From contig CAIRTR010000247.1 in NCBI GenBank assembly GCA_903881565.1, forward strand, positions 1-42,481: a stretch of 42,481 bases of DNA. The letters run 5' to 3'. Shown here piece after piece: positions 2,827 to 31,211 of the stretch. A model generated the notes under the pieces. The model saw only the letters and a list, made by a program, of their open reading frames with translations. It ran no database searches and was not told where the DNA came from. The first letter of the stretch is position 1. The number at the start of each line of letters is the position of its first letter. A program made the translations under genes and the position numbers. This stretch comes from Oligoflexia bacterium. Lineage in GTDB: Bacteria; Bdellovibrionota; UBA1018.

Positions 2827-2827
2827 G

Positions 2828-6083: not shown

Positions 6084-8027
6084 ATGCGTCGGTATACAGG
6101 CAAGCAGTATTGGATTACAGCATTTATTGGCGTGGCCTTGTTGCGTTTTGTCTCGATTATTCCGTTTGTAATCGATGATGACGAAGCGTGGTGGGCTGTA
6201 TCTGCACGCGCGCTTAAAACCCCCTGGGAGTTTTATTTCCGCGCCGTCGACGTGAAGCCCCCAGGGATTGTCTGGTTCTACTACTTTGTTGATCGTATCG
6301 TTCACTGTGCCTGTGATCCCCGGGTCACCCGGGCGGCTTTTATTTTGCTCCTTGTAGGGGCAGCATTGTGCCTCCGCTGGTTATTGCCGCGTTTGTCTGC
6401 AGGGGCGGCCGGGGCGGCAGGGAGCTCTAAAAAGGGATGGATCGCAGCGACTCTCTTTGTTCTAGGGACGGCAATGGGGCTTCCAAAGCTTTTTACGATT
6501 ACGGGCGAAGGCCTCATGACTCTATTCGTGGTTGCGGGTTATTCTCTGGCTTTTGTTCCGGCGGTCTCAACGGCAGTGCCTGGGATTTACCTTCTCTCAG
6601 GCGCTTTGCTCGGCTGCGCTATCCTGGTTAAACAAACTGCGATCCTGTTTGCGATTCCGATTCTTTTTTGCAGGTTTCCCAAACGATTTACGTCTTTCCA
6701 AATCGGGCAGTTTCTGTTGGGCTCTCTGCTCGTGGTCGTTCCTGCCCTCTGGGCGGTTGATCCCGCGACTTTTGTTTATTGGAACTGGACCTATCCGAGT
6801 GAGGTATTGATTTCGGTCCGCGACCGCCTCTTTGATTCGAACAAGCAGCTTGGGATAAGTCTGCTGCTTTTTGGGGTGGCACTTTTCCCGATGATTCAAT
6901 GGGCGAGCTCAGCACTAAGATCCGGAGCTGCTGGGGGAAGATCTGAGACCTCTGCGCCCGCCCTCAAGGCTTTGATCCCGGATTGGCTTCGGGATTTTAG
7001 AGTACTTTGGCTCGTATCAGCCACTTTCGTGATGTTGGTGGGCCGCGGGCTGTTTCTGCACTATTTTGTGCCGATGATTGCACCACTAGCCCTTCTTGCT
7101 GCGGAGTCGCCCGGGGCCGCTCGTGAAAAAAGTTTCGGATTGAAGTGGATGATGGGGTGCTACGGTCTGAGTGCGGCTTTTCTGCTTTTTCAAGAAACCG
7201 GGATCTTGTGGACCACGGATTTGCCTTACTTCAAGTCTGTGGGCGAAGTGATTCGGTCTAATGTGCCCGCGGATAAACGCATCTTGGTCTGGGGTGGATC
7301 CACCTTGCCTCTGAGCTATTCGGGTAGAAACTATGTGACGCGCTTTGTGGTACCGCGTTTCGGCACACTCCCTTATTCGACACGGGCTACTGAAGAAGTG
7401 TTTCATCGAGAGCTTCTTGAAGATCGCCCTTTTATGATCGTGGATCTGCATGAACGCGCTGATAATCGGTTTAACAATCCCATTGAGAGTGACACGGTTG
7501 TTACCGAGATGATCAAACAGGAATTTCATCCCTATTTTGCCACGAGGATTCCGTGGGCGAAATTTTATCTCAGGGAGGCGCCGCCTGCGGGCTCTGAGCT
7601 CAGGCCGGTTTTGAATTCCGCAGCACTTGAGGCTCTTTCAGAGCCCTTTCCTGCGGCTGAGAGGCCGTGGGAAGTGCTGGCCAATCCACCGCGCAAGGAC
7701 TCCATAGTGGCTTGGTGGGATTGGGAACGTCAGGTTCGTGCGCGCTATGGCGCTGAATTGCTGCAAGCTCAAGGTTCGAGTGCTGAGGTTCGTGCAAAAG
7801 CTCGCAGGTTGCTCCGGCAGCTGGATCGGGAGCCGGCGAGTTCATCAGCTGCCGACGAAATGGAGCAGTTTGTGGCTCAATCGGAAAATCTTCCTACCCG
7901 CTCAAGACTCTGGTGGCTGCAACTCGCGTTTGTCAAATTGACGCCCAAGGCTTGGAGCCCTGAAGTTCCCGCTATAAGGGCGATCAGTTCTATCGTGCCT
8001 CCCGGTGAGCGCATTCATCGCGAATAA
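6084..8027 (+). CDS. GT-C family integral membrane glycosyltransferase (ArnT/PMT-like, GT39/GT83 type)
   Basis: This 647-residue protein has an N-terminal membrane segment (about 11-30) directly followed by the acidic loop motif DDDEAWWAV (Asp31-Glu34), then VKPPGIVWFY. This is the usual first periplasmic loop of GT-C enzymes that take a sugar from a polyprenyl-phosphate donor. Roughly ten hydrophobic segments fill residues 11-380; a soluble C-terminal domain (about 390-647) faces the periplasm. The likely role is transfer of a lipid-linked sugar to an envelope acceptor (lipid A, glycolipid or protein); the acceptor cannot be told. No good Shine-Dalgarno lies before the ATG at 6084, but no in-frame start lies just upstream. 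It converges on the DUF3047 gene with a 3-base gap and no visible terminator. Confidence 0.85.
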   Translation: MRRYTGKQYWITAFIGVALLRFVSIIPFVIDDDEAWWAVSARALKTPWEFYFRAVDVKPPGIVWFYYFVDRIVHCACDPRVTRAAFILLLVGAALCLRWLLPRLSAGAAGAAGSSKKGWIAATLFVLGTAMGLPKLFTITGEGLMTLFVVAGYSLAFVPAVSTAVPGIYLLSGALLGCAILVKQTAILFAIPILFCRFPKRFTSFQIGQFLLGSLLVVVPALWAVDPATFVYWNWTYPSEVLISVRDRLFDSNKQLGISLLLFGVALFPMIQWASSALRSGAAGGRSETSAPALKALIPDWLRDFRVLWLVSATFVMLVGRGLFLHYFVPMIAPLALLAAESPGAAREKSFGLKWMMGCYGLSAAFLLFQETGILWTTDLPYFKSVGEVIRSNVPADKRILVWGGSTLPLSYSGRNYVTRFVVPRFGTLPYSTRATEEVFHRELLEDRPFMIVDLHERADNRFNNPIESDTVVTEMIKQEFHPYFATRIPWAKFYLREAPPAGSELRPVLNSAALEALSEPFPAAERPWEVLANPPRKDSIVAWWDWERQVRARYGAELLQAQGSSAEVRAKARRLLRQLDREPASSSAADEMEQFVAQSENLPTRSRLWWLQLAFVKLTPKAWSPEVPAIRAISSIVPPGERIHRE

Positions 8028-15412: not shown

Positions 15413-16492
15413 ATGAAACTGGGATCTTTGCTTCTCAAGCGACTTCAGCGACGGGTATCCCGCAAAGCGAAACCCAAAACGCGCGAGTCGCGCGCACTCG
15501 CCGTTGCAAAGCCCCCCGTGAACACCGACCCCCGCGTGCTGACCGTCGCACAATTTGTGCGCCCGAATGAAGAGCTCCGGGATAAAATCGAAGCATTTTT
15601 GCTGGATCAGCGATCCGAGCACACGAGACGAGCCTACGGAAAGGACTTGAAGCGTTTCGTGAAGTTCCTGCTTTTTCGCGAGTTCAAGCGCCAAGGCTCG
15701 CGTTCCACGAAGACACTAGATCACCTCGATCGCTCCACCGTCATTGCCTATAAAGACGCACTTCTAAGTGAAGGGCTTCAGCACACGACGATTGATCGAC
15801 ATCTGGCTACGCTCAGAAGTTTCTTTGGCTGGCTCGTTGAAGAGGGCGTTTTGGAGAAGAGTCCGGTCCAGAATGTGCGGTTTTTGAATCCGAAACGGAT
15901 TTCTAAGACTTCAGGCTTTTCAGATGAAGAAGTCATGCAGATTTTGGCGCAGCCGGATTTGTATAGCCGCGGGGGTGCGCAGCATTTTGCGATTCTCATG
16001 ATGCTGTTTTATTGCGGACTCAGGCGATCGGAACTGTGCGCACTTCGGACCTCAAATCTGGGTCTTGAGCGCAATCAGCGGGTGCTCAAACTGGTGGGGA
16101 AGGGGAATGCGGAACGCTTGATTCCGCTGGTGCCTGCGGTTTGGGGGGCTTTGGAAAAACACTTTAAGATTAGCCGCAAAGACCCCAGTATTGATGGGTT
16201 TTTGTTTTCGCCGACCCGAAACAATCGAACCAAAGAATTTGAGAAGGCGTTGGATCCCTCCGCGATCTTCTATTTAGTAAAGCGCTACGCCAGGCTTGCC
16301 GGAATTCAAAGGCGCGTGTCTCCCCATTCATGTCGGGCGACCGCGATTTCTAATGCGCGGGATCATAACGTGCCTGATCGGGCGATTCAAGAGTTCGCCG
16401 GTTGGGCGACACCCGACATGATAACGCGCTACGATAAACGAAAGAATGCGGTCGAAAAATCCGCCGCCCATTGGATCAAATACAGCAATTGA
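15413..16492 (+). CDS. Tyrosine recombinase (XerC/D-like or phage-type integrase)
   Basis: A 359-residue protein with a basic N-terminal extension (about 1-55), a SAM-like core-binding domain (about 60-150, containing HTRRAYGKDLKRF) and a catalytic domain. The active-site residues are visible: Arg204 in CGLRRSEL, Lys230 in LVGKGNAERLIPL, His305 and Arg308 in PHSCRATA, Trp331 in FAGWATPDM at the His/Trp position, and nucleophile Tyr340 in ITRYDKR. Such enzymes cut and rejoin DNA at specific sites, either resolving chromosome dimers or moving an element. It is longer than XerC/XerD (about 300) because of the N-terminal extension. No phage genes flank it. Inverted repeats lie directly upstream (15339-15400). 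Confidence 0.93.
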   Translation: MKLGSLLLKRLQRRVSRKAKPKTRESRALAVAKPPVNTDPRVLTVAQFVRPNEELRDKIEAFLLDQRSEHTRRAYGKDLKRFVKFLLFREFKRQGSRSTKTLDHLDRSTVIAYKDALLSEGLQHTTIDRHLATLRSFFGWLVEEGVLEKSPVQNVRFLNPKRISKTSGFSDEEVMQILAQPDLYSRGGAQHFAILMMLFYCGLRRSELCALRTSNLGLERNQRVLKLVGKGNAERLIPLVPAVWGALEKHFKISRKDPSIDGFLFSPTRNNRTKEFEKALDPSAIFYLVKRYARLAGIQRRVSPHSCRATAISNARDHNVPDRAIQEFAGWATPDMITRYDKRKNAVEKSAAHWIKYSN

Positions 16493-17327: not shown

Positions 17328-20300
17328 ATGACTGGGTTACTGCGGAACGTAATCTCAACCTTGTCTTTTGCCAAGTCCCGGGCGTCTTCTTGGACGTTTT
17401 CGGGCCTCGCCTTTTTCCCGCTTTTGGGTTCACTCACTCTCTTGTCCGGCCTCTCGGGTTGTAAATTTGAATCCTCCGATCAGCAAACTCCTCCGGATCC
17501 CAAAGCGGTCGAAATCACGAAAGACGTCAAATCGATTCCTTCAGTCACCGCGGCACTCACGACAATCAAAGGCAAGGACGGCGTTTCCTTAAGCTGGGAA
17601 CTTGCAAAAGATGGCAACGCCCAGCCAATCACGAAGTACAATATTTATCGGTTTTCGTCGGACCGTGTCTGCCCCCTGGATCCGGTGAAGATCAAGAAAC
17701 TCTCTCGTCTGGTCGAATCCAAATTCGAAGCCAAAGAATCTCCCGCAATCTATCTTGACGCCAAGGCCTCCGTTTCCAAATACAACTGTTACACGGTGAT
17801 TCCGATCTACAAGGCGCTTGAAGCGATTGCGGCTGCCAATGGCAGCGCGGTGCCACCCGTTGGATCAGTCCTCCCTTCGGTGAGCAGCGAGGATTTTGGG
17901 AACGTGTCGTTAGGAAATATTTCGACGAAGACCATCACGCTGAGTTCGGGCACTGCGGGGTATATCGCCGCTTTGTCGGTTTCTGTTACTGATCCGCAAC
18001 TCGCCATTGAAAATAATACTTGCGGTGACACCCTCGAACCCGGTGTGTTGGATCCCAGTTCCACGTGTTCGTTTGATTTGCTCTATGAACCATCGGCTGA
18101 AGCAACACAAGCGTTGCTCACGGATTCGCTCGTCGTTTCATTTACCAATGGCGCAGCTGTGAAGACCTTAAATCTTGCGATTAAGGGCAAACGCGTTTCG
18201 CCTGCGGTGCTGAATGCCTCCCCTTTGACTTACGACTTCGGTAATCTCACGCTGAATTCGGGTGGCACTCACGTCTTTACGCTCACCAACGGCGGGGATT
18301 CTCCTGCGACGGATGTTTACATCGCGCTCACGGGCTCAGGCTATGCGCTCTCAAGTTCAACCTGCGGGACACTTGCTGCGAAAAAGGTGATTGCACCTTT
18401 GGGCACTTGCAGGTTTACCGTCGCTTTTGAACCTAAAGCAGTTGGGGCTGCCACGGGGAGTGTGGCGTTACATTACAACGACGGGATTCAGGATCAGGCA
18501 AGTGCTGTGACGGCTTCGGGTGTGGGGATTATGCCTGCATCCCTTGCCTTTGCTCCCACGTTAAAGGATTTTGGAGAAATCACTTTGGGCGCAAGCGCCT
18601 CAGAGACCTTCACCCTCACCAATAGTGGGGGATCGAGCGCGTCGCTGACTGCGGTCTCGCTTTTGGGCGCTGGGTTTACACTGGGCGCGAATACGTGCGG
18701 AACATCGGGTGGGAAGGTGAGTCTGGCGCCAGCGGGAACGTGTAGTTTTTCAGTAGATTTTTCGCCCACCCAGGCCAGTGCTTTTACCGGCGCAGTGAGC
18801 TTGAGCTTTTTTGATGGGGCCCGCTCGCAAACCGGAACGCTTGCGCTAACCGGCTCGGGCCGGACGCGGGCGCAACTCGTGTTTTCTCCTGGTTCCAAGA
18901 GTTTTGGAAACGTCGTTTTGGGCCTGAGTGATTCAGCTGCTTTGACTCTCTCAAATACAGGCGGGACGGATGCCTCAGGAGTCTATGTCGGGCTCACAGG
19001 TAGCGGCTATTCACTGAGTTCAAGTAACTGCGGTGTTCTCGGAACGACAGTGGCGGTGGCGGCGCATTCCTCCTGTTCCTTAAGTCTCGTGTTCACCCCT
19101 GCGGCAGCAGGCCAGGCGTCAGGCAGTATTGCCTCTCATTATAATGACGGAGTTGCCGCACAGAGTGGGAGTCTCAGTTTTTCGGGCATAGGGCTTGAGC
19201 CTACGACGATGGCGTTTTCGCCGACAAGTTTTGATTTTGGCAATGTCACTATCGGTAATTCCTCGGCGCATTTGTTTACGTTGCTCAATCATAAGCCCGC
19301 AGCTGCGACAAATGTGTCATTGAGTATAGCGGGAGCGGGCTTCTCGCTTGCGTCCAATAATTGTGGAGTCAGCGGTTCAGCCGTTTCGGTGGCCGGTGGC
19401 TCAAGTTGTACGTTCTCCGTGGTGTATGCCCCGGGGGTGAGTGGCGCGGCTTCAGCTTCGATCAGTCTTTCGTATACAGATGGAATAGATGCTCAAACGG
19501 GCTCGCTTGCCGTGACTGCGGTCGGATTGACGCCAGCCTCTTTGGCGTTCGCGCCTGGGTCCAAGGCTTTTGGAGACGTGACGACGGGTGCGAGTTCGTC
19601 AGAGAGTTTCACCCTCACCAATTCGGGGCAAACGGGTGCGACGTCGGTTTACTTAGGTGTAAGTGGAGCAGGTTATTCGCTTACGTCCAACAATTGCGGT
19701 GTGACGGGATCGCGTGTGAGCGTGAGTGCGGGTGGAAACTGCAGCTTTAACCTGTTGTTTGCCCCGGTTTCAGCAGGTGCTGAGATCTCGAGTGTGAGTC
19801 TTAGCTATAATGACGGACACCAGAGCCAATCGGGGAGCGTCGGCGCAACCGGTACCGGGATCTTGCCTGCGCTTCTTGGTGCTTCTGAATCCTCTCACGG
19901 CTACGGCAACGTAACTTTGAGCCAGACGAGTGCTCGGACGTTTACCTTTACAAATTCGCAAGGCACCACCGCCTCTCAGATGTATGCTTCGCTTTCGGGT
20001 ACTGGGTTTACGATCACTTCAAATGGGTGCGGGACTTTAGGTGTGCGCGCGACGCTCGCTTTAAATGCGACCTGCGACGTTGAGGTGACCTTTACCCCCA
20101 ATGCTTCAGGGGCGTTTTCGGGTACGCTGAGTGTTTACTATAATGACGGTTCCCAGACCCAGCATACGACGACGATTTTGACCGGCACGGGGCAGACGGT
20201 GGCGTCGTTGGCATTTACGCCGACTTCTAAGGATTTTGGAAACGTCACGCAGGGGTTGAACGCTTCTGCGTCGTTTACGCTTACAAATTCCGGTGATTTG

Positions 20301-23300
20301 TCAGCGACTCTTGTCTCTCTTGCTTTGAGTGACAGTGGCTTTAGTTTAGCCAATAACACTTGCGGCGTTTCGGCCACGAAGGTGAGTGTGGCTAGTGGTG
20401 CAAACTGCACATTTGATGTGGTGTTTGCGCCTGGATCGCTTGGCAGCTTTTCTGGGAATTTGGCTTTGAGTTATAATGATACGCTTGCGGCGCGGGCGGG
20501 ATCGGTCGCACTAACGGGCGCGGCTCCTTTGGCCTCAGCCGTGACTTCGACGATTGTCGCGGATGCGGGAGGAATCGCTGATGGAGTGACGACCTCTGCG
20601 ATCACCGTAAGCCTCAAGGACGGTGCGGGCAACCCAGTAGGCTCGACACCTACTTTAAGTGTGAGCGGGACTTTGAACACGCTGGCGTGCGCGGCGACGA
20701 ATGCGACGACCGGGATCACGGCCTGCACGCTGAAGTCGACCAAAGCTGAGACCAAGACGGTGACGATCACGGCGCCTGCGGGATTAGGGGCGGTGAGTGC
20801 GGATATTGGGTTTGTTGCAGGTGATGCGAGTGTCGTCACAACAATGCTTTCTGCGACAACGCCCAAGACCGCCGACGGGAACGATGCTTCGACGGTGACG
20901 ATCACGCTTAAGGACGTGAATTCGAATTTGATTTCGGGCACGACACCGACGATTTCGGCAACGGGGACGGGTAATACGGTAAGTGCGTGTTCGAGTTCGG
21001 ATGCGAGCGGGGTGTCGACGTGTACGATCAAGTCGACAAAAGCGGAGAGCAAGACGGTAACGATTACTTCACCTGCGGGCTTGGGAGCTCTTAGCGCGCA
21101 AGCTGTGTTTGGTGCAGGAGTGGCCAGTTCAGTTACAACGACGCTTTCGGCGACAACGCCTAAGACGGCAGATGGCGCAGATACGTCGACGGTGACGGTG
21201 ACTCTTAAAGATGTGGATTCGAATCTGATCACGGGGACGACGCCGACGATCTCGGTGACGGGACCGGGCAATACGGTGAGTACGTGCTCGAGTTCGGATG
21301 CAAGCGGTGTCTCAATCTGTACTATAAGCACAACAGTTGCAGAGGGAAAAACGGTAACTGTTTTAACGCCTGCGGGCTTGGGATCCTTGTCCGCCAACGC
21401 GATGTTTGTCCCGGTTAGCGCGATGAAGTCTACAGTTTCGGGATTAAAGCTTTGGTATAAAGCTGATTCAATTCTGGGTTTAAGTAGCGGAAGTGCAGTG
21501 GTAAGTTGGTCAGATTCGAGCGGCAATTCGAATGCAGCCACTCAGGTTACTTCAAATTACGAACCTTTGTGGATTGCAAATGCCCTCAATTCTCAACCTG
21601 TTGTCAGGTTTGATGGCTCAAATGATACGATGAATCTTGCATCGGCCATGACGACGGCACGCACGGTATTTATCGTGGGGAAACATTCAACCGGAACTCA
21701 GGATTATGGGGCGATGCTGGGATCTGCGGCGACCTACTATGACTTTCACGGGGGGACCGCTACGGCGCTGTATCTTGCGGCAACGACGAATGCCAACATT
21801 TTGGGCGGGTCGGTTTATTCAGATGGTCTGAGTGTCTCTTCGGCTTCGATCTTAAAGCCAACGAATTATTCTTTGGTATCGCTCGTTACGGCCGGGAACG
21901 TTGGGTTTGATAATATTGCCAATGATCGGGGATTGGCAGGTCGTTATTGGAATGGGGATTTTGCAGAAATCCTTGTTTACAGCTCTGCCTTGAGTGCGGG
22001 CGATCGACAAGCGGTTGAGGCCTATTTGCAAGGTAAGTACGCGATGGCATCAGCGGGAAACTCAACGCTTACCGCAACTGCGAATGCAACCGCTGATAAC
22101 ACTGACCTCTCCACTGTGACGATCACGATGATGAATTCGATTAATAGTGCATTGGTTGGGGTGACACCGACGATCAATGTGAGCGGGACGGGCAATACCG
22201 TGAATGCCTGCTCTGCTTCTAATGGCTCCGGGGTTTCGACATGCACTTTCAAGTCCAGCAAGGCCGAGACCAAGGCGGTGACGATCACCTCGCCTGCGGG
22301 ACTCTCGGCCCTGGGCGCTCAGACTGTGTTTGGTGCGGGTGTGGCAAGTGCCGTTGCGACGACGCTTACGGCTACGACGGCAAAGACATCGGACGGCGCA
22401 GATGCCGCAACTGCGACGATTACCTTAAAAGATGTAAACTCGAATCCGATCGCAGGGGCGACGCCCACGATTAGCGTGACGGGAGCGGGCAATACGGTGA
22501 GCGTATGCTCCAGCTCACTTGCCTCTGGAGTTTCGACGTGTACCGTGACCTCTACCGTCGCCGAGTCAAAGACGGTGACAATCGCAACACCAGGCAGCTT
22601 GGGATCGTTGTCCGCTAACATTATGTTTGTGCCAGTGAGTTCGATGAAATCTGCAGCGGGAGGTCTTAAATTCTGGCTCAAGGCGGATGCGATCACCGGT
22701 TTGAGCAGTGGGAGCGCCGTTTTGAGTTGGCCTGATTCAAGTGGCTTTGGCAATAGTGCCAGCCAAGCAACGGCTAATCAACAACCTTTGTGGATTGCAA
22801 ACGCGCTCGGAGGGCAACCTGTTGTTAGATTTGATGGGTTGAATGATACCCTAAACCTCGCCTCACAGATTACGACGGCTCGTTCTGTTTTTATCGTCGT
22901 AAAGCATGCGAGTGGATTGCAGGATTATGCTCACGTGTTGGGATCTATAACGGCCAATGTATGGGATTTTCATGGTGGAACTGGGACGACGCTTTTCTAT
23001 AATAATTCAGTAGTCGCAAATGTGCTCAATGGTACGGCTTTTCTAAATGGTTTGAGTGCCACTCCTGTCGCGATGGTCAAACCCACAAACTACTCGGTTT
23101 TGTCTTTTGTTACTGCGGGCAATACTCGTTTTGACAATATTGGGAACGATCACGGTTACGCGGCAAGATATTGGAACGGGGACTATGCCGAAATAATGTC
23201 CTACGACACAGTGTTGGGCGATGCGGATCGACAGGCGGTTGAGTTGTATCTGAAAAATAAGTACGTCATTACCGCAAGCACGATTACCGCAACTACGGGG

Positions 23301-26300
23301 GTGCTAGCAAACAACAGTGATTTGTCGACCGTCACAATTACGATGAAAGACGTTGGAAACAGTGCTCTCGTGAGTGTAACTCCTGTGATTTCGGTGTCTG
23401 GGAACGGCAATACTGTGAGTGCGTGTAGTGCAAGTGATAGTTCTGGTGTTTCAACTTGTACCCTAAAGTCCAGTGTTGCCGAAGGTAAGGTCATTGCGAT
23501 TACTTCGCCGGCTGGTTTGGGGCCGATATCGGTCCGTTCTGTATTTGTTTCGACTTCCGGAATGTCGGCTGCGGCAGATCACCTGAAGTTCTGGCTCAAG
23601 GCGGATGCGATCACGGGGCTGAGTAGTGGCGGTGCCGTTTCGAGCTGGCCTGATTCGAGTGGCTACGGCAATAACGCTACCCAAGCAACGTTGATTCAAC
23701 GGCCTTTATGGGTTGCAAATGCGCTTGGGGGTCAACCGGTTGTTAGATTTGACGGGTCGAATGATACCTTGAATCTTGCTTCACAAATCACGGCGGCGCG
23801 TACGGTTTTCATCGTCGTAAAACATGCGACGGGAACTCAAGATTATGCTCACGTGTTGGGATCTATAACGGCCAATGTATGGGATTTTCATGGTGGAACT
23901 GGGACGACGCTTTTCTATAATAATTCAGTAGTCGCAAATGTGCTCAATGGTACGGCTTTCCTAAATGGTTTGAGTGCCACTCCTGTCGCGATGGTCAAAC
24001 CCACCGCCTACTCGGTATTGTCCTTTGTGCCGACGGGCAATACTCGTTTTGACAATATTGGGAATGATCACGGTTACGCGGCAAGATATTGGAACGGGGA
24101 CTATGCCGAAGTGATTACTTACGATACAGCGTTGAGCGATGTGGATAGACGAGGGGTGGAGTCCTATCTACAGAACAAGTACTCAATGGCTTCCGCCGCA
24201 AATTCGACGATTGCAAGCAGTGGTTCACCCACTGCCAATGCTTCAGACACCGCTACGATCACGTTGACGCTCAAAGACTCCACTGGCGCCGTGATGGTCG
24301 GGGTTACTCCCACAATCAGTGTTTCTGGCACAGGTAATACTGCGAGTAGTTGTACCCCTAGTGATAGCAATGGTGTTTCGATTTGTACGATTAGCTCAAA
24401 TGTCGCTGAAACTAAAACGGTGACTGTGGCCGCTCCTTCAGTTTTGACCGGCGTGACGACGACGGTGACGTTCGCTGCGGCCGTAGTCAGCGCTTCTCAG
24501 TCTACGCTTTCGATCTATCCTCGCTCGCTCGTGGCCGATGGCTCCTCTACAGCACAGGCTCTTGTGACACTTAAAGATGCCGGTGGGCATGGTATTTATA
24601 ACCGAACGGTATCTTTAGCATCGAGCCGGGGTGGAGCCGACACGATAGCGGTTGTTTCGGCGACCACGGATGCCACCGGAAGCGCCGTATTTACCGTAAA
24701 ATCCTCTACTCAAGGGATTCCCACTTTAACTGCGACCGATACGAGCGATTCAGTTGTCGTGACCCAAACCAGCGATATCACGTTCCTGGGTGCTACGCCG
24801 ATTGTGGACTATCAGGCAAGAATTGCAAATGCGGGAACAACGGCTGGGACCAATGCGGCATCGCTTACGAGTTGGAAGGATCTTGTACGCTCGGCGAACA
24901 GCTATAATGGAACTTTGTCCTATTTTGGGTTCAACAGTACAAGTGGATGGGGCGGAAACGGTGGGACGACGATTTCGTCCTCAACGGATGGGCCTTATCG
25001 TCTAATCTTCGATGGAGCGGATGATGCTGTTTCAGTCGGAAGCGCAGTCAGTGGCAATAATACCTTGAGCTTTGAGTCCTGGATCAAGCTCGATGCGCCG
25101 TCGCAAAAGGGAAAAGTCATTTTATCAAATGGCAGCTCGGACGGCAATGGGTTGACTTTAAGGCAGTCGAAAGTGACGGCTGGAGCGTTGGAGATATTGT
25201 TGGGTTCCTCGACCTATTCGGATGAAGTCATGCAGGATTCGCCTGTTGCCTACTGGAAGCTTGATGAAACCAGGGGCACCCGCGCGGTCGATAGTGTGGG
25301 CACAAACCATGGAACTTATCCTGCAACAGGAGTGAACAAGGGCCAAACCAGCGCCATGCAGGGTCTCTCAACTCAGCTTACAGGGACTTCTGCGGTGTCG
25401 TTTCCTGCCGTCGATTTGTCGGCTACGAATAGGGTCACCGTCGAATTTTGGTATCAGCCCGCAGTTTCTCCTCCCGCTGCAACGACGATTCTTTATGAGG
25501 TTTCCTCGGATTACAATAGTGTCACTAATGGACTGATTTTCACCCATGAAGCGAACGGCACTCTCACGGTCGGGATGAAAGGGAATGTTTATTATTCTCT
25601 TTGGAGTGGGGCGACGGCGCTTGTCGCAGGAAGCTGGTATCATGTCGTGGGGGTTTTTGATAAATCGCTTACGAGTTCTGAGTCCAAATTGTACCTTAAC
25701 GGAGTTTTGAATGGAGCAGTGCATGCCAGTTACAATAGTAATAACACCAACGCGTTTGGAAGCAGTCCGAGCTTTCTGGGGGCCCGCAATGGAGCAAGCT
25801 ATTTTACTGCGGGACGCTTTGATGAGCTTGCGATCTATAATACCGATATAGGTTCGACGCGAATTGCGGCTCACTATACTGCGGGTTCTAAGTCCAGTTG
25901 CCAAACTCCCCAAACGTTTACCTCCGGGGCCTGGTACGCTGTAGCTGGGGTTTTTGATTCAGTCGCAAAAAATCTCAAACTCTATGTGGATGGCGTTTTA
26001 CAATGTCAAACGACGCAGGTTGCGGGAACTTTTGCGACAGGTTCGAATTCCCTCTATATGGGTACCGACATCAGTCTCTCTAATGCTTGGAGCGGAGCGA
26101 TTGCCGATTTGAGGTGGTTTGCTTCTGAACTCTCGCAAACGCTGTTTAGACAAAATCAGGAAGTCACGAAGTCACGCTTCCCCGATGTTCCTACAAGCAT
26201 CACGGGGATTAAGCTTTGGCTAAAAGCCGATTCAATTGGCAACTTAAGTGATGGGGCTGCTGTTACGGCTTGGCCGGATAGCAGTGGGCTTGGACTTGAT

Positions 26301-26861
26301 TTTACGCAATTAACTCTGGCCAACAAGCCAACCTATAAGACCAACATTATTAACGGAAAACCTACTATTCGTTTTGCGGGATCACAATATTTGACGAACA
26401 CGTCAGCGAGTTTGAATCTGTCATCCACTTTTACGGTGTTTACGGTTTTGAAAGGGGCGTCGACTGCGCAGACCGGGCAGGCGTGGATGTGGGGCGAAGC
26501 GGCCAATGGAAAACGGCGCTCACTTTGGATGCAGCAGACTAATGGATATATAAACTTTAGCGGCTACAATGCGAACGTAACAACCACGACTAACGGAAAG
26601 GACAATTCCACGCATGTGATAACAGCAAGTCGTGACGGCAACGGTTTGGTCAAAGTCTATTCGGATGCGTTACTCTTAAGCTCGGGCACTCCCACTCTTG
26701 TTGCCTATACGTACTCTGCCTTTACGGTGGGCGCGAACGCAGATGGAACTGAAGGGTATGTTGATGATATTGCGGAGATTATCGCATTTAATTCTTCACT
26801 ATCTGATGCAGAGAGAACGAGAGTAGAGTCTTATCTTGCCGCAAAATATGCTGCCTATTAA
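17328..26861 (+). CDS. Giant mosaic surface lipoprotein (ASH repeats, Ig-like and lectin modules)
   Basis: A 3,177-residue protein. The N-terminus is a lipoprotein signal with lipobox LSGC (Cys45, followed by Lys). An Fn3-like module covers about 65-165. Eight ASH/HYDIN-like beta-sandwich repeats cover about 188-1065, each with a DFGNVTLG start, FTLTNSG, and two spaced Cys that may form a disulfide. Then come bacterial Ig-like (invasin-type) modules with TADG..ST.TITLKD motifs, arranged as three Ig, lectin, two Ig, lectin, one Ig, lectin, two Ig. The lectin modules begin LK.W.KADAI..LSSG and contain QPVVRFDGSNDT. A LamG pair (about 2540-2945) and a final lectin module (about 2955-3177) end the protein. 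No sorting signal is seen. It should be anchored in the outer membrane and bind sugars or other cells; repeats also invite phase or length variation. A typical adhesin by architecture, specific ligand unknown. Confidence 0.92.
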   Translation: MTGLLRNVISTLSFAKSRASSWTFSGLAFFPLLGSLTLLSGLSGCKFESSDQQTPPDPKAVEITKDVKSIPSVTAALTTIKGKDGVSLSWELAKDGNAQPITKYNIYRFSSDRVCPLDPVKIKKLSRLVESKFEAKESPAIYLDAKASVSKYNCYTVIPIYKALEAIAAANGSAVPPVGSVLPSVSSEDFGNVSLGNISTKTITLSSGTAGYIAALSVSVTDPQLAIENNTCGDTLEPGVLDPSSTCSFDLLYEPSAEATQALLTDSLVVSFTNGAAVKTLNLAIKGKRVSPAVLNASPLTYDFGNLTLNSGGTHVFTLTNGGDSPATDVYIALTGSGYALSSSTCGTLAAKKVIAPLGTCRFTVAFEPKAVGAATGSVALHYNDGIQDQASAVTASGVGIMPASLAFAPTLKDFGEITLGASASETFTLTNSGGSSASLTAVSLLGAGFTLGANTCGTSGGKVSLAPAGTCSFSVDFSPTQASAFTGAVSLSFFDGARSQTGTLALTGSGRTRAQLVFSPGSKSFGNVVLGLSDSAALTLSNTGGTDASGVYVGLTGSGYSLSSSNCGVLGTTVAVAAHSSCSLSLVFTPAAAGQASGSIASHYNDGVAAQSGSLSFSGIGLEPTTMAFSPTSFDFGNVTIGNSSAHLFTLLNHKPAAATNVSLSIAGAGFSLASNNCGVSGSAVSVAGGSSCTFSVVYAPGVSGAASASISLSYTDGIDAQTGSLAVTAVGLTPASLAFAPGSKAFGDVTTGASSSESFTLTNSGQTGATSVYLGVSGAGYSLTSNNCGVTGSRVSVSAGGNCSFNLLFAPVSAGAEISSVSLSYNDGHQSQSGSVGATGTGILPALLGASESSHGYGNVTLSQTSARTFTFTNSQGTTASQMYASLSGTGFTITSNGCGTLGVRATLALNATCDVEVTFTPNASGAFSGTLSVYYNDGSQTQHTTTILTGTGQTVASLAFTPTSKDFGNVTQGLNASASFTLTNSGDLSATLVSLALSDSGFSLANNTCGVSATKVSVASGANCTFDVVFAPGSLGSFSGNLALSYNDTLAARAGSVALTGAAPLASAVTSTIVADAGGIADGVTTSAITVSLKDGAGNPVGSTPTLSVSGTLNTLACAATNATTGITACTLKSTKAETKTVTITAPAGLGAVSADIGFVAGDASVVTTMLSATTPKTADGNDASTVTITLKDVNSNLISGTTPTISATGTGNTVSACSSSDASGVSTCTIKSTKAESKTVTITSPAGLGALSAQAVFGAGVASSVTTTLSATTPKTADGADTSTVTVTLKDVDSNLITGTTPTISVTGPGNTVSTCSSSDASGVSICTISTTVAEGKTVTVLTPAGLGSLSANAMFVPVSAMKSTVSGLKLWYKADSILGLSSGSAVVSWSDSSGNSNAATQVTSNYEPLWIANALNSQPVVRFDGSNDTMNLASAMTTARTVFIVGKHSTGTQDYGAMLGSAATYYDFHGGTATALYLAATTNANILGGSVYSDGLSVSSASILKPTNYSLVSLVTAGNVGFDNIANDRGLAGRYWNGDFAEILVYSSALSAGDRQAVEAYLQGKYAMASAGNSTLTATANATADNTDLSTVTITMMNSINSALVGVTPTINVSGTGNTVNACSASNGSGVSTCTFKSSKAETKAVTITSPAGLSALGAQTVFGAGVASAVATTLTATTAKTSDGADAATATITLKDVNSNPIAGATPTISVTGAGNTVSVCSSSLASGVSTCTVTSTVAESKTVTIATPGSLGSLSANIMFVPVSSMKSAAGGLKFWLKADAITGLSSGSAVLSWPDSSGFGNSASQATANQQPLWIANALGGQPVVRFDGLNDTLNLASQITTARSVFIVVKHASGLQDYAHVLGSITANVWDFHGGTGTTLFYNNSVVANVLNGTAFLNGLSATPVAMVKPTNYSVLSFVTAGNTRFDNIGNDHGYAARYWNGDYAEIMSYDTVLGDADRQAVELYLKNKYVITASTITATTGVLANNSDLSTVTITMKDVGNSALVSVTPVISVSGNGNTVSACSASDSSGVSTCTLKSSVAEGKVIAITSPAGLGPISVRSVFVSTSGMSAAADHLKFWLKADAITGLSSGGAVSSWPDSSGYGNNATQATLIQRPLWVANALGGQPVVRFDGSNDTLNLASQITAARTVFIVVKHATGTQDYAHVLGSITANVWDFHGGTGTTLFYNNSVVANVLNGTAFLNGLSATPVAMVKPTAYSVLSFVPTGNTRFDNIGNDHGYAARYWNGDYAEVITYDTALSDVDRRGVESYLQNKYSMASAANSTIASSGSPTANASDTATITLTLKDSTGAVMVGVTPTISVSGTGNTASSCTPSDSNGVSICTISSNVAETKTVTVAAPSVLTGVTTTVTFAAAVVSASQSTLSIYPRSLVADGSSTAQALVTLKDAGGHGIYNRTVSLASSRGGADTIAVVSATTDATGSAVFTVKSSTQGIPTLTATDTSDSVVVTQTSDITFLGATPIVDYQARIANAGTTAGTNAASLTSWKDLVRSANSYNGTLSYFGFNSTSGWGGNGGTTISSSTDGPYRLIFDGADDAVSVGSAVSGNNTLSFESWIKLDAPSQKGKVILSNGSSDGNGLTLRQSKVTAGALEILLGSSTYSDEVMQDSPVAYWKLDETRGTRAVDSVGTNHGTYPATGVNKGQTSAMQGLSTQLTGTSAVSFPAVDLSATNRVTVEFWYQPAVSPPAATTILYEVSSDYNSVTNGLIFTHEANGTLTVGMKGNVYYSLWSGATALVAGSWYHVVGVFDKSLTSSESKLYLNGVLNGAVHASYNSNNTNAFGSSPSFLGARNGASYFTAGRFDELAIYNTDIGSTRIAAHYTAGSKSSCQTPQTFTSGAWYAVAGVFDSVAKNLKLYVDGVLQCQTTQVAGTFATGSNSLYMGTDISLSNAWSGAIADLRWFASELSQTLFRQNQEVTKSRFPDVPTSITGIKLWLKADSIGNLSDGAAVTAWPDSSGLGLDFTQLTLANKPTYKTNIINGKPTIRFAGSQYLTNTSASLNLSSTFTVFTVLKGASTAQTGQAWMWGEAANGKRRSLWMQQTNGYINFSGYNANVTTTTNGKDNSTHVITASRDGNGLVKVYSDALLLSSGTPTLVAYTYSAFTVGANADGTEGYVDDIAEIIAFNSSLSDAERTRVESYLAAKYAAY
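17892..20530 (+). repeat. Eight tandem ASH/HYDIN-like repeats inside the giant lipoprotein
   Basis: Equivalent codons of the DFG motif fall at 17892, 18234, 18567, 18900, 19233, 19566, 19899 and 20232. From the second repeat on, the period is exactly 333 bp (111 codons) with no insertion or deletion, although the repeats have diverged in sequence. Each repeat carries a CG..C pair of cysteines. Confidence 0.85.
22923..24004 (+). repeat. Near-identical 164-bp direct repeats, 918 bp apart, in lectin modules
   Basis: The stretches 22923-23086 and 23841-24004 are identical except for one base (T to C in CTTTTCTAA/CTTTCCTAA). They code for the core of the second and third lectin modules (DYAHVLGSITANVWDFHGG and onward). 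Flanking parts of the same 918-bp unit (one Ig plus one lectin module) are clearly more diverged, which points to recent duplication or gene conversion. Confidence 0.85.
25212..25901 (+). other. LamG domain inserted inside another LamG domain
   Basis: The first half of an outer LamG fold (FESWIKLDAPSQKGKVILSNG) is interrupted after LEILLGSS by a complete LamG unit that starts TYSDEVMQDSPVAYWKLDE and ends FDELAIYNTDIGSTRIAAHY. The outer fold then resumes at CQTPQTFTSGAWYAVAGVFD and finishes with LYVDGVLQC and ADLRWFASELS. The insert is about 230 residues. Confidence 0.6.
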
Positions 26862-26904: not shown

Positions 26905-29790
26905 ATGATAAAAACATTCAAAAGTTGGCGGGTTGTCTCTTCATTATCCCTCGCAGCACTTTCTGCGTTTTCGGCGCTGCCGCTTTTTGCAGAAACCGCA
27001 ACCCCAATCCAAGACGTCGTCTCTATTTGCAGTCGGACGGAAGCCGTGAGGATCGCGATTCAAAAAGAAGTCGCCACCCAGCGATTCACCTCCGGAGTCG
27101 GCGGAGACGTGCGATGTAACTCAATTCGCGCGGCCGAATTGAAGAAGATATTTGGCCTCCAGATTATTGAAAAAGAAATTTCTCACCTGCAGCCCGGAGA
27201 TTTTGCGGGCCTTACCACCCTCAAAACACTCGATCTTGAGGGCAATAAACTTGTGGGGCTTGATCCCGCCGCGCTTGCGGACCTCACCGCGCTCGAAAAC
27301 CTGGTGCTTGCGCGCAATCCAATGACGGTGATCGGAGGTGAGCTTTCCGTGATTCCAAACTTGGTACGGGTTGATTATTCAGGTTGCAAAATCGACGCGA
27401 TCGCGGCCGATGCTTTTTCGGGGAACGCCAAACTTGAAGCGGTCTTCTTGCCCGACAATCAGTTGAAAAACCTCCCCGCCGGGATTTTTGCCCATAACGA
27501 CGCTCTTCGAATCATCGATTTGGCCGACAACTGGCTTGAGCAAATGCCTCGCGATTTTGTTTCGGACAAGGGCAATCTGCAAAGCATCGATTTATCCCAA
27601 AATATGATTGAGCGGATCGAAAGAACCCAAATTCCAAAGTTTGTAGGCCTCAGAGTTCTCAACCTCGCCGCCAATCCGATTGAAGACATCGACGAAGAAG
27701 GCGCTTATCTCCAGTTGTTTAACCCTGCAGTTGAAGTCATCACTTCTCGCAGCAGACCTGCAAAGCTGGCGAAGAGCGAGATCAAGGAGTCTGATGCCTT
27801 TGAAGCGGACTCTGAAAACCCCATTTCCCAAGGGGTCGAGAGAGTCCGTAGTTTTGTTCGCGAACACTGGCACATGCCTTTGGCCATTCATTATGCGTTT
27901 TCTTCGCCTGCGCAACTCGAAGTGCGAGATCCCGGACTTCGCGCTCGCGAAGCAAGGCTTTTGCTCCGACAACTTGAAGAGGTTCGTGAAGCGTATCGAA
28001 GAGCGGCCTTTGATTTCTTTGAGGTTCAAATTCGTTTTGTTTTCCCGGAGTCTCAAGAAGTGGCGCCGAGCGTGACTTTTGACCCAAAACGCCTAGGCTT
28101 TACAATCACCCTCAAGACGCCGGTGGGCGGCCTTTTTGCGGCGAGCCTTGTGACGGATGATCAGATTTTGGATGTTCTGGCCGAAAACTTTGATCGCGCT
28201 CATACGATTGCCTGGTACAAGAGCGAAGCTCCAAAGGAGCTTGAAGCGGCTCTGAAACGCGATTTTGAGAAGTTGGGCAAAATGGATGACGAACTTCGTC
28301 GGGACATCGTACGCCTGGGAGACCTGATCACGGCGGTCACCACGCGAATGGATATGGCTGATGAAAGAGCCCTTTATTCAAGCTCAGAGATGGTCGATGC
28401 GCGTTTTATTCAGTATCGGGTGATGCTGGCTTTTCAAAGAATTGAAAACACGCTGGCGCGTTGGAAACTTGCCGAGGCGGATTCCGAATTCGCTCAGCGG
28501 GCCGAAGTGCGTTTGTTACTCTCAGAATCCGCCGAAATCTATCGAACCTATTTGGATTGGTTCTTGGAAACCGTCGTGGGTGGGCGCGCGACGCTGAACG
28601 TCCTTAGCAAGTCCTTTTATCATCGCAATCCGATCTTTAAGATCTTGGATTCAGAAGTGCCTGCGGGATTCTTCAATCTCGAAGGGCGCATTTCGACAGG
28701 CATACCTGGTGGCGCGGTTCGAGACCTTTTGAAGAGTCGCCTCAGTTTCCCTTTGATTAATTTGCTGCATGATCTGCGCGGTCTTGACGAAAAAGTGTCG
28801 GATCTGGATATCAAGGATTCGGCATTGGGAATTGAGATGAATCAATCGATGGAGCGAATTGCCCGCGATCGTAAATCGCGCTCGGTTCACAAACTCACCT
28901 ACATGCGTGCACTCAAGGAACTTTGGGACGCGCGCATTAAGGACACCGTGAAGTTTCCCGTTTACCGCGTGATGGTGGGAGTTGCGAGCTGGATTGGCGA
29001 TACGCGCACCTCAAATCCGGCGCCGGCGATCACGAGCGATCAGATTGCCGAGATGAAGGCCACGCTCAAGCCTGGAGACCTGCTCATCGAGCGTACCGAT
29101 TATTTCCTCTCAAACTTGTTCCTGGGAGGTTTTTGGCCCCATGGGATTATCTACCTGGGCCCTAAAGAAGAGTGGTCCAAGATGAAGCTTGCTGATGGGA
29201 CGACCTTGGCTGAAGACCCTTGGATTGCGGATAATATTCTCCCCAATTATCATTCGGAAAAGGACAATAACCTTCCTTATGTGATCGAGTCAATTTCAGA
29301 AGGAGCCGTGTTTAACTCGATGGAAGAAGCGGTTCAAAAGGATTATATCGGCGTCTTCAGACCCAAATTTGCGCCGCAAGATCAAGAAGCAAAAGTGGCA
29401 GCAGCCATCAAGCGCGCGCTTAAATATCATGGCAGGGCTTATGACTTTGATTTTGACTTCTTTACGGATGACAAGTTGGTATGCACAGAGCTTTTGTATC
29501 GCGCTTATCATCCCGATATTAACTTCTTGGTTCAAAAAGAAGCCATTAATAAACCAACTCCCCGGGTGCCTGGCATGATCAACAAAGCAGGGCGCGATAC
29601 GATGCCTGCAGGAGAGATTGCAAGACTCGCCATCTATATGATGGAGCATCCAGAGCCTAATCCTTCAATTGGGTATGGTGGGCAGACGCTCGAGTTCATC
29701 AAGATCTATATGAAACAAGGAGCAGGCAAGCCCGCGCAGATGTTTGAAGGCGCCCGTGGCCTTGAAGAGTTAAAGCGTACGCTGCAATAG
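26905..29790 (+). CDS. Secreted leucine-rich-repeat protein with C-terminal YiiX-type papain-like (C92) hydrolase
   Basis: A 961-residue protein. A signal peptide (1 to about 29, ending PLFA) is followed by about seven leucine-rich repeats (about 100-265; for example LKTLDLEGNKL, LRIIDLADNWL, LQSIDLSQNMI, LRVLNLAANPI). A long, mostly helical middle (about 290-700) follows. The C-terminal domain begins LKPGDLLIER and shows the permuted NlpC/P60-like pattern of the YaeF/YiiX family: His746 in WPHGIIYLGP, an acidic YDFDFDFFTDDK stretch, and nucleophile Cys860 in LVCTELLYRAY. These enzymes are predicted cysteine amidases or acyl-transferring hydrolases in the envelope; the exact bond is not established. 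LRRs suggest a protein or surface ligand is recognised first. It is followed after 14 bases by a second secreted protein, probably in the same operon. Confidence 0.87.
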   Translation: MIKTFKSWRVVSSLSLAALSAFSALPLFAETATPIQDVVSICSRTEAVRIAIQKEVATQRFTSGVGGDVRCNSIRAAELKKIFGLQIIEKEISHLQPGDFAGLTTLKTLDLEGNKLVGLDPAALADLTALENLVLARNPMTVIGGELSVIPNLVRVDYSGCKIDAIAADAFSGNAKLEAVFLPDNQLKNLPAGIFAHNDALRIIDLADNWLEQMPRDFVSDKGNLQSIDLSQNMIERIERTQIPKFVGLRVLNLAANPIEDIDEEGAYLQLFNPAVEVITSRSRPAKLAKSEIKESDAFEADSENPISQGVERVRSFVREHWHMPLAIHYAFSSPAQLEVRDPGLRAREARLLLRQLEEVREAYRRAAFDFFEVQIRFVFPESQEVAPSVTFDPKRLGFTITLKTPVGGLFAASLVTDDQILDVLAENFDRAHTIAWYKSEAPKELEAALKRDFEKLGKMDDELRRDIVRLGDLITAVTTRMDMADERALYSSSEMVDARFIQYRVMLAFQRIENTLARWKLAEADSEFAQRAEVRLLLSESAEIYRTYLDWFLETVVGGRATLNVLSKSFYHRNPIFKILDSEVPAGFFNLEGRISTGIPGGAVRDLLKSRLSFPLINLLHDLRGLDEKVSDLDIKDSALGIEMNQSMERIARDRKSRSVHKLTYMRALKELWDARIKDTVKFPVYRVMVGVASWIGDTRTSNPAPAITSDQIAEMKATLKPGDLLIERTDYFLSNLFLGGFWPHGIIYLGPKEEWSKMKLADGTTLAEDPWIADNILPNYHSEKDNNLPYVIESISEGAVFNSMEEAVQKDYIGVFRPKFAPQDQEAKVAAAIKRALKYHGRAYDFDFDFFTDDKLVCTELLYRAYHPDINFLVQKEAINKPTPRVPGMINKAGRDTMPAGEIARLAIYMMEHPEPNPSIGYGGQTLEFIKIYMKQGAGKPAQMFEGARGLEELKRTLQ

Positions 29791-29804
29791 AAAAGGGTGT
29801 GCTC

Positions 29805-31211
29805 ATGCGAAACTTTATTGCTTTGGGACTCACTTCGGTTTTTCTTGGGCTGAGTCTGACCGTCGCTTATGCGGCCCAGGACCTGAAGACTGCCGTGAGC
29901 AGTTTCACTCACGAATTTGAAGTTTCGATTCTTGGCGGGAAACTCTATTATCGGGCCAAAGAGGGCTCCCCGAAATGGGAACTCTTGGGAGATAAGGGGC
30001 TTCCTAGTGCGCCTTCAAATTTTCTAGGCTTAGGCGGTTTTGAAGCGCCGGCAGCGGTCACGGAACTTTCGGCCGATGGCGACAATCTGATTGCGATCGG
30101 CAGTGACTCAATTGTCTATTATATGAAGTGGGGCACCCGCAAGTGGATCCACACCTGGGGCATGCCGTTTTCGAAACATTTGCAGCTTCCTGAAAATGTC
30201 CGTTCGTGGTCGATTTCACATCGCGGGCCCTTTGCCGGGGGCTATGATGACATCGATGGAAACTTTCACCCCGTTTCTGCAGGCGTGACAACAATGTATG
30301 TCTTGGAAGAAGGCGGACTCAGCATCCGCTACGCCGATCCGTGGTTGCCCGCGGATTTTTCACATGAAATCTGTGGGCCGCTCCGAAACCGTTTTCGGTC
30401 CCGCGCGATGACCTCAAGCGCATCAACCGTCTTTGTCATCAGTGATGGCGGCGAAATGTACACCCGTTTAGCCGACTTCGATACATTGGGGCACGACCCG
30501 TTCTTGGCTTACAGCTATGAACGTCGCGTGCGAGATATCCCAAACGAAAGGGATGTGCGCACGCTTCCTCCCGAAGAGTGGAAGCATCAGCCCTCGATAT
30601 CGCTCCTTCAGGGCCGCCCAACCTCCGCAATCACGATATTTCAAACAGGCAAAGGCAACGCGTCTCGAGAACTGCGAGTTGAGGGCATCAATGCGCAAGG
30701 CGAGCGCGGATATTTTGCAAAATCCATCAACGGCGAAACCTGGAGCTTCACCCAAACCGATGCGGAGCTCGGGCGCTCGCTCCTTTTTGCAAGTGACGGG
30801 GGCTCGGATCTGGGTCCTGATCATGATCAACATTTCTCAGGCAGCCTCAAACTTGGCCGCCTTTTCGGAGCTAAAAAATATCAGATTGCGCTCAAGGATT
30901 TTAATCCTCTGTGCTCGGGCGCGACTCTGGTGATAAAGATCGGATCGGAAACGCTCGAGTTCCCCCTTCATACGACGACGGCTTCTCAGCTCGCTCGAAA
31001 AATAAAGGGTGCCGTGACGTTGTCAGATGAAGTGAAGGCCAAGGCTGCAGGAAACAAAGAGCTGCAAGCGTTTGTTTCAAAATTCTTTGGCGAAAAATCC
31101 TTCGTCAAAATCAAGCTCAAGATCGCAGGTGATGGATCCGTTTCCGTTCGCAGCCGTTCTCTTTTTTCACTCTTTCCTAAGATCCAGATGCAGTTTTCAA
31201 AGATCAATTAG
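29805..31211 (+). CDS. Secreted protein of unknown function downstream of the LRR-hydrolase
   Basis: I start at ATG 29805 because AAAGGG lies seven bases upstream; an in-frame GTG at 29799 is less likely. The 468-residue product has a signal peptide (about 1-23, ending AYA). The body has repeated short beta-strand blocks (for example ELLGDKG, DSIVYYMKWGTRKW, MYVLEEGGLSIRYADPWLP, VFVISDGGEMYTRLADFD), suggestive of a beta-propeller or similar beta fold, followed by an alpha/beta segment (about 345-468). I do not recognise the family. The 14-base gap after the LRR-hydrolase stop implies co-transcription and possibly a working pair in the periplasm or at the surface. Confidence 0.85.
   Translation: MRNFIALGLTSVFLGLSLTVAYAAQDLKTAVSSFTHEFEVSILGGKLYYRAKEGSPKWELLGDKGLPSAPSNFLGLGGFEAPAAVTELSADGDNLIAIGSDSIVYYMKWGTRKWIHTWGMPFSKHLQLPENVRSWSISHRGPFAGGYDDIDGNFHPVSAGVTTMYVLEEGGLSIRYADPWLPADFSHEICGPLRNRFRSRAMTSSASTVFVISDGGEMYTRLADFDTLGHDPFLAYSYERRVRDIPNERDVRTLPPEEWKHQPSISLLQGRPTSAITIFQTGKGNASRELRVEGINAQGERGYFAKSINGETWSFTQTDAELGRSLLFASDGGSDLGPDHDQHFSGSLKLGRLFGAKKYQIALKDFNPLCSGATLVIKIGSETLEFPLHTTTASQLARKIKGAVTLSDEVKAKAAGNKELQAFVSKFFGEKSFVKIKLKIAGDGSVSVRSRSLFSLFPKIQMQFSKIN

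Follow-up and report, generated by a model that had tools for sequence, protein, structure and literature searches.

A leucine-rich-repeat C92 protein and a predicted beta-propeller partner: a possible two-gene unit for envelope-lipid remodelling in an Oligoflexia bacterium

Structures of two proteins from the C92 family, YiiX from Escherichia coli and BcPPNE from Bacillus cereus, have their catalytic residues in a permuted order (His/Glu/Tyr/Cys) and have a hydrophobic S1 pocket (PMC3142127). In YiiX, this pocket holds a fatty acid (PMC3142127). LnsA, which is a YiiX-like permuted enzyme, acts together with LnsB in the N-acylation of lipoproteins (PMC7387801). Other acyl-acting members of the permuted superfamily are Lnb/DUF4105 and the phospholipase Tox-Act1 (PMC12994826), and a review terms the C92 proteins lipid amidases (PMC10318531). 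Little is understood of what bacterial C92/YiiX proteins do (PMC7387801, PMC3142127).

We analysed a stretch of 42,481 nucleotides from an Oligoflexia bacterium of the phylum Bdellovibrionota (GenBank contig CAIRTR010000247.1), which we will call the window. Two adjacent genes in the window encode a protein with leucine-rich repeats (LRRs) and a C92 domain and a second protein that is likely a beta-propeller (Table 1). We judge the chances to be about even that these genes are a two-gene unit for remodelling envelope lipids, in which the enzyme is aimed by its LRRs and works with the propeller protein as a subunit.

Table 1. Positions of the two genes, their parts, and related loci in other genomes. 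Positions without a locus name refer to the window.
Feature	Position	Strand	Basis or remark
LRR-C92 gene, 961 aa, ATG start	26905..29790	+	ORF call
LRR array, residues 106-270, seven 23-24-residue units	27220..27714	+	LRR_8 match and unit count
Peptidase_C92 domain, residues 721-876, with His746, Glu795, Tyr846, and Cys860	29065..29532	+	PF05708 match, alignment, PDB profile search
Codon CAT of the predicted catalytic His746	29140..29142	+	Sequence, alignment
Codon TGC of the predicted catalytic Cys860	29482..29484	+	Sequence, alignment
Spacer, 14 bases, with Shine-Dalgarno-like AAAAGGG for the second gene	29791..29804	+	Sequence
Predicted propeller gene, 468 aa, with a C-terminal beta domain (~340-466)	29805..31211	+	ORF call, alignment, AlphaFold2
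G133 locus: C92 between two propeller paralogues that lie on opposite strands	L124:6220-12482	alternating	
G042 locus: propeller gene, then Lnb_N + DUF7840 + DUF7843 gene	L022 (=L031):560-3982		
C92 with small Ceramidase (PF05875)-like neighbours	L052, L054, L055, L057, L060, L065, L067, L076	three orientations	
C92-PLD fusions, lipoprotein-like, two PLD-like stretches	L088:5959-8958, L089:5673-8678, L091:3878-6856	-, +, - respectively	

The LRR-C92 protein has a signal peptide (residues ~1-30), an LRR N-cap with seven LRRs (~40-270), a long middle region (~306-700), and the C92 domain (721-876). The signal peptides of this protein and of the propeller protein, which we judged by eye only, are of the Sec type and lack a lipobox. 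The LRRs match LRR_8 from Pfam (E = 1.3e-24), and the units start at residues 106, 130, 153, 177, 201, 225, and 249. (This spacing of 23-24 residues lies within the 20-29 residues of tandem LxxLxLxxNxL repeats.) The AlphaFold2 model of the protein has a mean pLDDT of just 58: the C92 part (~720-960) is confident, the rest is poor, and the LRRs were left unmodelled. The middle region is predicted, with moderate to low confidence, to be a small alpha/beta part (~306-414) followed by helices to about residue 700. When we searched with the whole model using Foldseek, we found no significant match, only helical-bundle noise.

We then examined the catalytic residues. The C92 domain matches PF05708 with 38.5 bits (the gathering score is 27), and the orthologue from another Oligoflexia bacterium, LJ_bin-4497 (G010 in our genome set), matches with 48.3 bits. 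In an alignment of 29 C92 proteins, the four predicted catalytic residues (H746, E795, Y846, and C860) do not vary, and neither do D725, G752, D847, F850, and E862. A profile of the family (an HMM) had just one convincing match in the PDB, YiiX from E. coli (2if6, E = 8e-6). The GKPYDF...CSE segment of the profile aligned with YiiX, so Y846 and C860 correspond to Tyr115 and Cys128 of YiiX. As in other permuted enzymes, and in contrast to the canonical NlpC/P60 order of Cys before His, His746 precedes Cys860. A Pfam scan found no match to Lnb_N (PF13387) in this protein.

Where did the LRRs come from? Across 369 genomes from the phylum, the long middle region has detectable similarity only in G010 (36% identity across the part that the two proteins share); other C92 matches start at or after position 639 of the search profile. 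Of the LRR part, the G010 protein retains its N-cap and, perhaps, two or three repeats that have degenerated (LRR_8 E = 0.09, which is below the cut-off), so the length of the LRR array differs between the two proteins. Besides these two, we saw no LRR-C92 fusion among the 369 genomes of this phylum, to which the search was confined. Because similar N-cap and LRR stretches occur in the phylum as stand-alone proteins of 220-500 amino acids, the LRRs seem to be a module that was added to a phylum-typical C92 enzyme.

The second gene has an alternative GTG start at 29799 (ORF 29799-31211), which would give a protein of 470 amino acids. The ATG at 29805 is the likelier start because the Shine-Dalgarno-like stretch lies 7 bases before it, and the gap between the two genes is therefore 14 bases. 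Searches of Pfam, NCBIfam, PADLOC, and the PDB found no match to the protein. (A PDB search with a profile of the family returned solanesyl diphosphate synthases, which we rejected as chance matches.) An AlphaFold2 model that was built with 22 homologues is all-beta, with a pLDDT of 89 and a pTM of 0.89. Its strands are in a propeller arrangement, with about five blades as judged from the sequence and DSSP, and a C-terminal beta domain follows. The Foldseek results for this model were dominated by generic propellers, with TM-scores of only 0.2-0.3. The fold class is therefore likely to be a beta-propeller, and we found no specific structural relative. The sequence-only reading had described a secreted LRR protein of 961 residues that has a long helical middle and ends in C92 with Cys860 as the catalytic residue, and, 14 bases on, a secreted protein with an unknown, beta-rich fold. 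All of this agrees with our results, given that the signal peptides were judged by eye, that a small alpha/beta part precedes the helices, and that the gap depends on the start codon.

Homologues of the propeller protein, at up to 40% identity, are found in distant bacteria: Myxococcota, Elusimicrobia, Spirochaetia, Chlamydiae, Syntrophaceae, and Gordonia. Since both proteins have homologues, both ORFs are real genes. D178 and D224 are invariant in the propeller family, and R221, R288, and D149 are nearly so. The family is present in 17 of the 369 genomes from the phylum, with up to three copies. Some genomes (G117, G118, G165, and G133; loci L124-L140) have several diverged paralogues, of which some have 730-1016 amino acids and carry extensions that match no assigned domain. 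The homologues from Gordonia (Actinomycetota; L040:3263-4945 and L041:7752-9431) are remote from the other hosts, which suggests an old spread or a transfer. We found no homologues in plasmids, and a scan of the extended set of homologues for informative fused domains found none.

The GC content is 0.51 for the LRR-C92 gene and 0.52 for the propeller gene, as compared to 0.52 for the window, so base composition gives no sign of horizontal transfer, and there is no sign of an island around the pair. Promoter-like and terminator-like sites were no more numerous than in shuffled sequence. Just upstream, on the same strand, is a gene for a lipoprotein-like giant of 3177 amino acids (17328-26861), with HYDIN/Cep192-type Ig domains and Big_1 and Laminin_G_3 repeats; it is a possible adhesin. 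It ends 43 bases before the LRR-C92 gene, and the genes may be co-transcribed. Further upstream are a tyrosine recombinase (Phage_integrase) gene (15413-16492) and, at 52-5686 and 6084-8027, an S8 subtilase (2828-5686) that adjoins two large proteins (924 and 647 amino acids) with no match in Pfam.

Are the LRR-C92 protein and the propeller protein functionally linked? We have several pieces of evidence from gene order. First, in G010 (contig CAITVN010000205.1), the tightly coupled pair is kept, with 1 base between the genes, even though their order is reversed and the flanking genes are different. Second, the sole C92 gene of another genome (G133) directly adjoins one propeller gene and is one gene away from a second. 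(The intervening gene encodes an uncharacterised protein of 326 amino acids.) The propeller and C92 genes in G133 are on opposite strands, so they do not form an operon, and in a phylogenetic tree this C92 protein is on a long branch outside of the window protein's subfamily. Third, in G042, which has no C92 match, a propeller gene lies 9 bases before a gene that encodes Lnb_N, DUF7840, and DUF7843 domains. The linkage of propellers with permuted NlpC/P60 enzymes has thus arisen repeatedly and independently. Leaving out the window, this makes three linked loci among about 45 propeller genes, where about 0.1 would be expected (P ~ 2e-4) if there are 5 such enzymes per 4300 genes; with a generous density of 12 enzymes per 3500 genes, 0.3 would be expected (P ~ 0.004). 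A caveat is that the 45 and both densities are estimates. We gave no weight to co-occurrence across genomes, given how common C92 matches (170 of 369 genomes) and how rare propeller genes are.

Alternatively, the two proteins might act separately and have only a transcript in common. The LRR-C92 protein would then be a secreted lipase or amidase that works alone, and the propeller would bind a ligand or catalyse a reaction independently. In Myxococcota, Elusimicrobia, Spirochaetia, Chlamydiae, and Gordonia, most members of the propeller family are solitary, and the conserved polar residues of the family could form a site of their own. Because roughly 40 of the 45 propeller genes have no C92 or Lnb_N enzyme next door, propellers must also serve in other roles. 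But separate action fits poorly with the persistence of the pair in G010 and with the recurrence of propellers next to C92 or Lnb_N, which exceeds chance, and we consider it improbable. Overall, the link between the propeller and C92 is real but, as the family mostly occurs alone, it is optional: the partnership is modular, not obligate. The sequence-only reading had proposed a system for recognition plus hydrolysis. The fusion of LRRs to an intact hydrolase-type domain and the linked partner fit with that proposal. Both checks that the reading had set came out in its favour: the Cys/His pair is invariant in the 29 aligned proteins, and the two genes are also found together in other genomes.

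We then considered what the C92 domain acts on. C92 domains had been taken to occur mainly as short lone proteins, but in this phylum the usual form is a secreted protein of 480-600 amino acids with a long N-terminal extension, and fusions of about 1000 amino acids with PLD are common too. (Our "A2" profile search, which gave the 170 genomes above, also includes some matches to the LRR part only; genomes have 1-7 C92 genes.) A Ceramidase (PF05875)-like gene adjoins C92 in 8 of about 28 loci, and it may be upstream, divergent, or convergent. The genomes with this linkage have just 1-3 ceramidase genes each. A PLD-like gene adjoins C92 in 3 of the ~28 loci, and three proteins of about 1000 amino acids contain both C92 and PLDc_2. 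As predicted domain architectures, these fusions are direct evidence that ties C92 to phospholipid chemistry. The fusions and the neighbourhoods agree, which points to lipids.

In the tree, the window protein groups with the G010 protein (99/99) within a subfamily of 14 rows (99/97) that includes three ceramidase-linked members (from G181, G082, and G182). However, we could recognise no ceramidase in the window's genome or in G010, which means that the ceramidase context cannot be carried over directly to the window protein. Its relatives and context do support a lipid substrate. Because C92 proteins in the phylum are usually secreted enzymes, often encoded beside ceramidase-like genes and sometimes beside PLD genes or fused to PLD, the C92 domain most likely cuts or transfers acyl groups of lipids in an envelope, rather than peptidoglycan peptides.

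If the LRR-C92 and propeller proteins do form an envelope-lipid unit, we infer that it would work as follows. Both proteins would be exported by Sec. The triad of Cys860, His746, and Glu795, along with Tyr846, would attack a lipid, which might be a phospholipid, a lipoprotein, or a lipo-amino acid, and bind its acyl chain to the enzyme as a thioester. This acyl-enzyme would then be hydrolysed, or else the acyl group would be transferred to an acceptor. The LRRs at the N-terminus would bind a surface or a protein that presents the substrate, in the cell's own envelope or in a foreign one, and the helical middle would space and orient the LRR array and the C92 domain. The propeller protein would contact the enzyme as a separate subunit for docking or for presenting the substrate. 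A broader idea, which is speculative and rather unlikely, is that the propeller family is a general accessory subunit for permuted NlpC/P60 acyl enzymes (both C92 and Lnb), with targets that are set by exchangeable modules such as LRRs. These would then be two-component secreted acyl hydrolases or acyltransferases.

Another explanation is that the C92 protein is secreted as a phospholipase against other bacteria and that the propeller shields the producer. Tox-Act1 from Salmonella is a phospholipase toxin with a permuted NlpC/P60 domain (PMC12994826), and in the window the propeller gene comes immediately after the C92 gene, as an immunity gene might. But both proteins seem to have Sec-type signal peptides, the ORFs of the window that we scanned include no secretion-system gene, and the PADLOC library of defence genes gave no match. 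Furthermore, the propeller gene stands first in G010, propeller homologues are widespread without C92, and the C92 proteins of the phylum, at 1-7 per genome, resemble housekeeping lipid enzymes. A toxin and immunity pair is therefore very unlikely.

The pair might instead N-acylate the bacterium's own lipoproteins, as LnsAB or Lnb do. LnsA requires a second, different protein (PMC7387801), and the propeller is paired with Lnb_N in G042. But the window's genome already has Lnt (above the curated cut-off) and, elsewhere, an Lnb_N protein, so there is no obvious gap in housekeeping N-acylation to fill. Also, the propeller protein is not a CPBP membrane protein, and LRRs would be unexpected in such a housekeeping step. 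We give this explanation little chance. Finally, although C92 belongs to the papain-like superfamily and is filed as a peptidase family in MEROPS, a peptidase or cell-wall amidase that acts on proteins or on peptidoglycan (whose peptides the sequence-only reading had suggested as a target), like the canonical NlpC/P60 enzymes, is hard to credit given the permuted order with His before Cys, the hydrophobic S1 pocket of the solved relatives, which was judged unsuited to peptides (PMC3142127), the acyl-acting relatives (PMC7387801, PMC12994826), and the lipid-enzyme neighbours and fusions of C92 in the phylum.

The Bdellovibrionota are known for predators that must remodel the envelopes of other bacteria. 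C92 and LRRs are each known separately; in the libraries and literature that we searched, we did not find a description of their combination, of the propeller family, or of its pairing with two families of permuted NlpC/P60 enzymes, and nothing on this system came up when we searched the literature for Bdellovibrio sphingolipids or LRR proteins. The related pairs in two other genomes, together with the propeller beside Lnb_N in G042, suggest that membrane lipids or lipoproteins are recognised and remodelled in a modular fashion. The locus and its relatives offer a context that can be tested: the PLD fusions, the ceramidase-like neighbours, the LRR form, and propellers that neighbour C92 as well as Lnb. 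Should the pairing prove functional, the propeller would be an accessory subunit in a superfamily with lipoprotein acyltransferases and lipase toxins among its members.

How does this locus compare to known systems? Like Tox-Act1 and TseH (PMC12994826), which are permuted NlpC/P60 enzymes that act on phospholipids outside of the producer's cytoplasm, it encodes a permuted enzyme, but those are T6SS effectors with immunity proteins and the window has no such context. LnsAB from Staphylococcus (PMC7387801) is, like our pair, a YiiX-like permuted enzyme with a second, unrelated protein. However, LnsB is a membrane protein of the CPBP type and the genes for LnsA and LnsB are not adjacent, whereas the partner in the window is secreted and all-beta, with no match to CPBP or anything else in Pfam, in a genome that has Lnt. 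Lnb/DUF4105 (PF13387) belongs to the same permuted superfamily and, in G042, is encoded next to a homologue of the partner, but the window's enzyme matches C92 and not Lnb_N. The C92-PLD fusion lipoproteins are secreted and combine an N-terminal extension with C92, as the window protein does, but in place of its N-terminal LRRs they have two C-terminal PLDc_2 stretches. The window's C92 domain belongs to the YaeF/YiiX family (PF05708) and has the same permuted His/Glu/Tyr/Cys as YiiX (2if6) and BcPPNE (3kw0). Those are single domains of about 190-200 amino acids; the window protein adds LRRs and about 400 residues in front, and it has a coupled partner.
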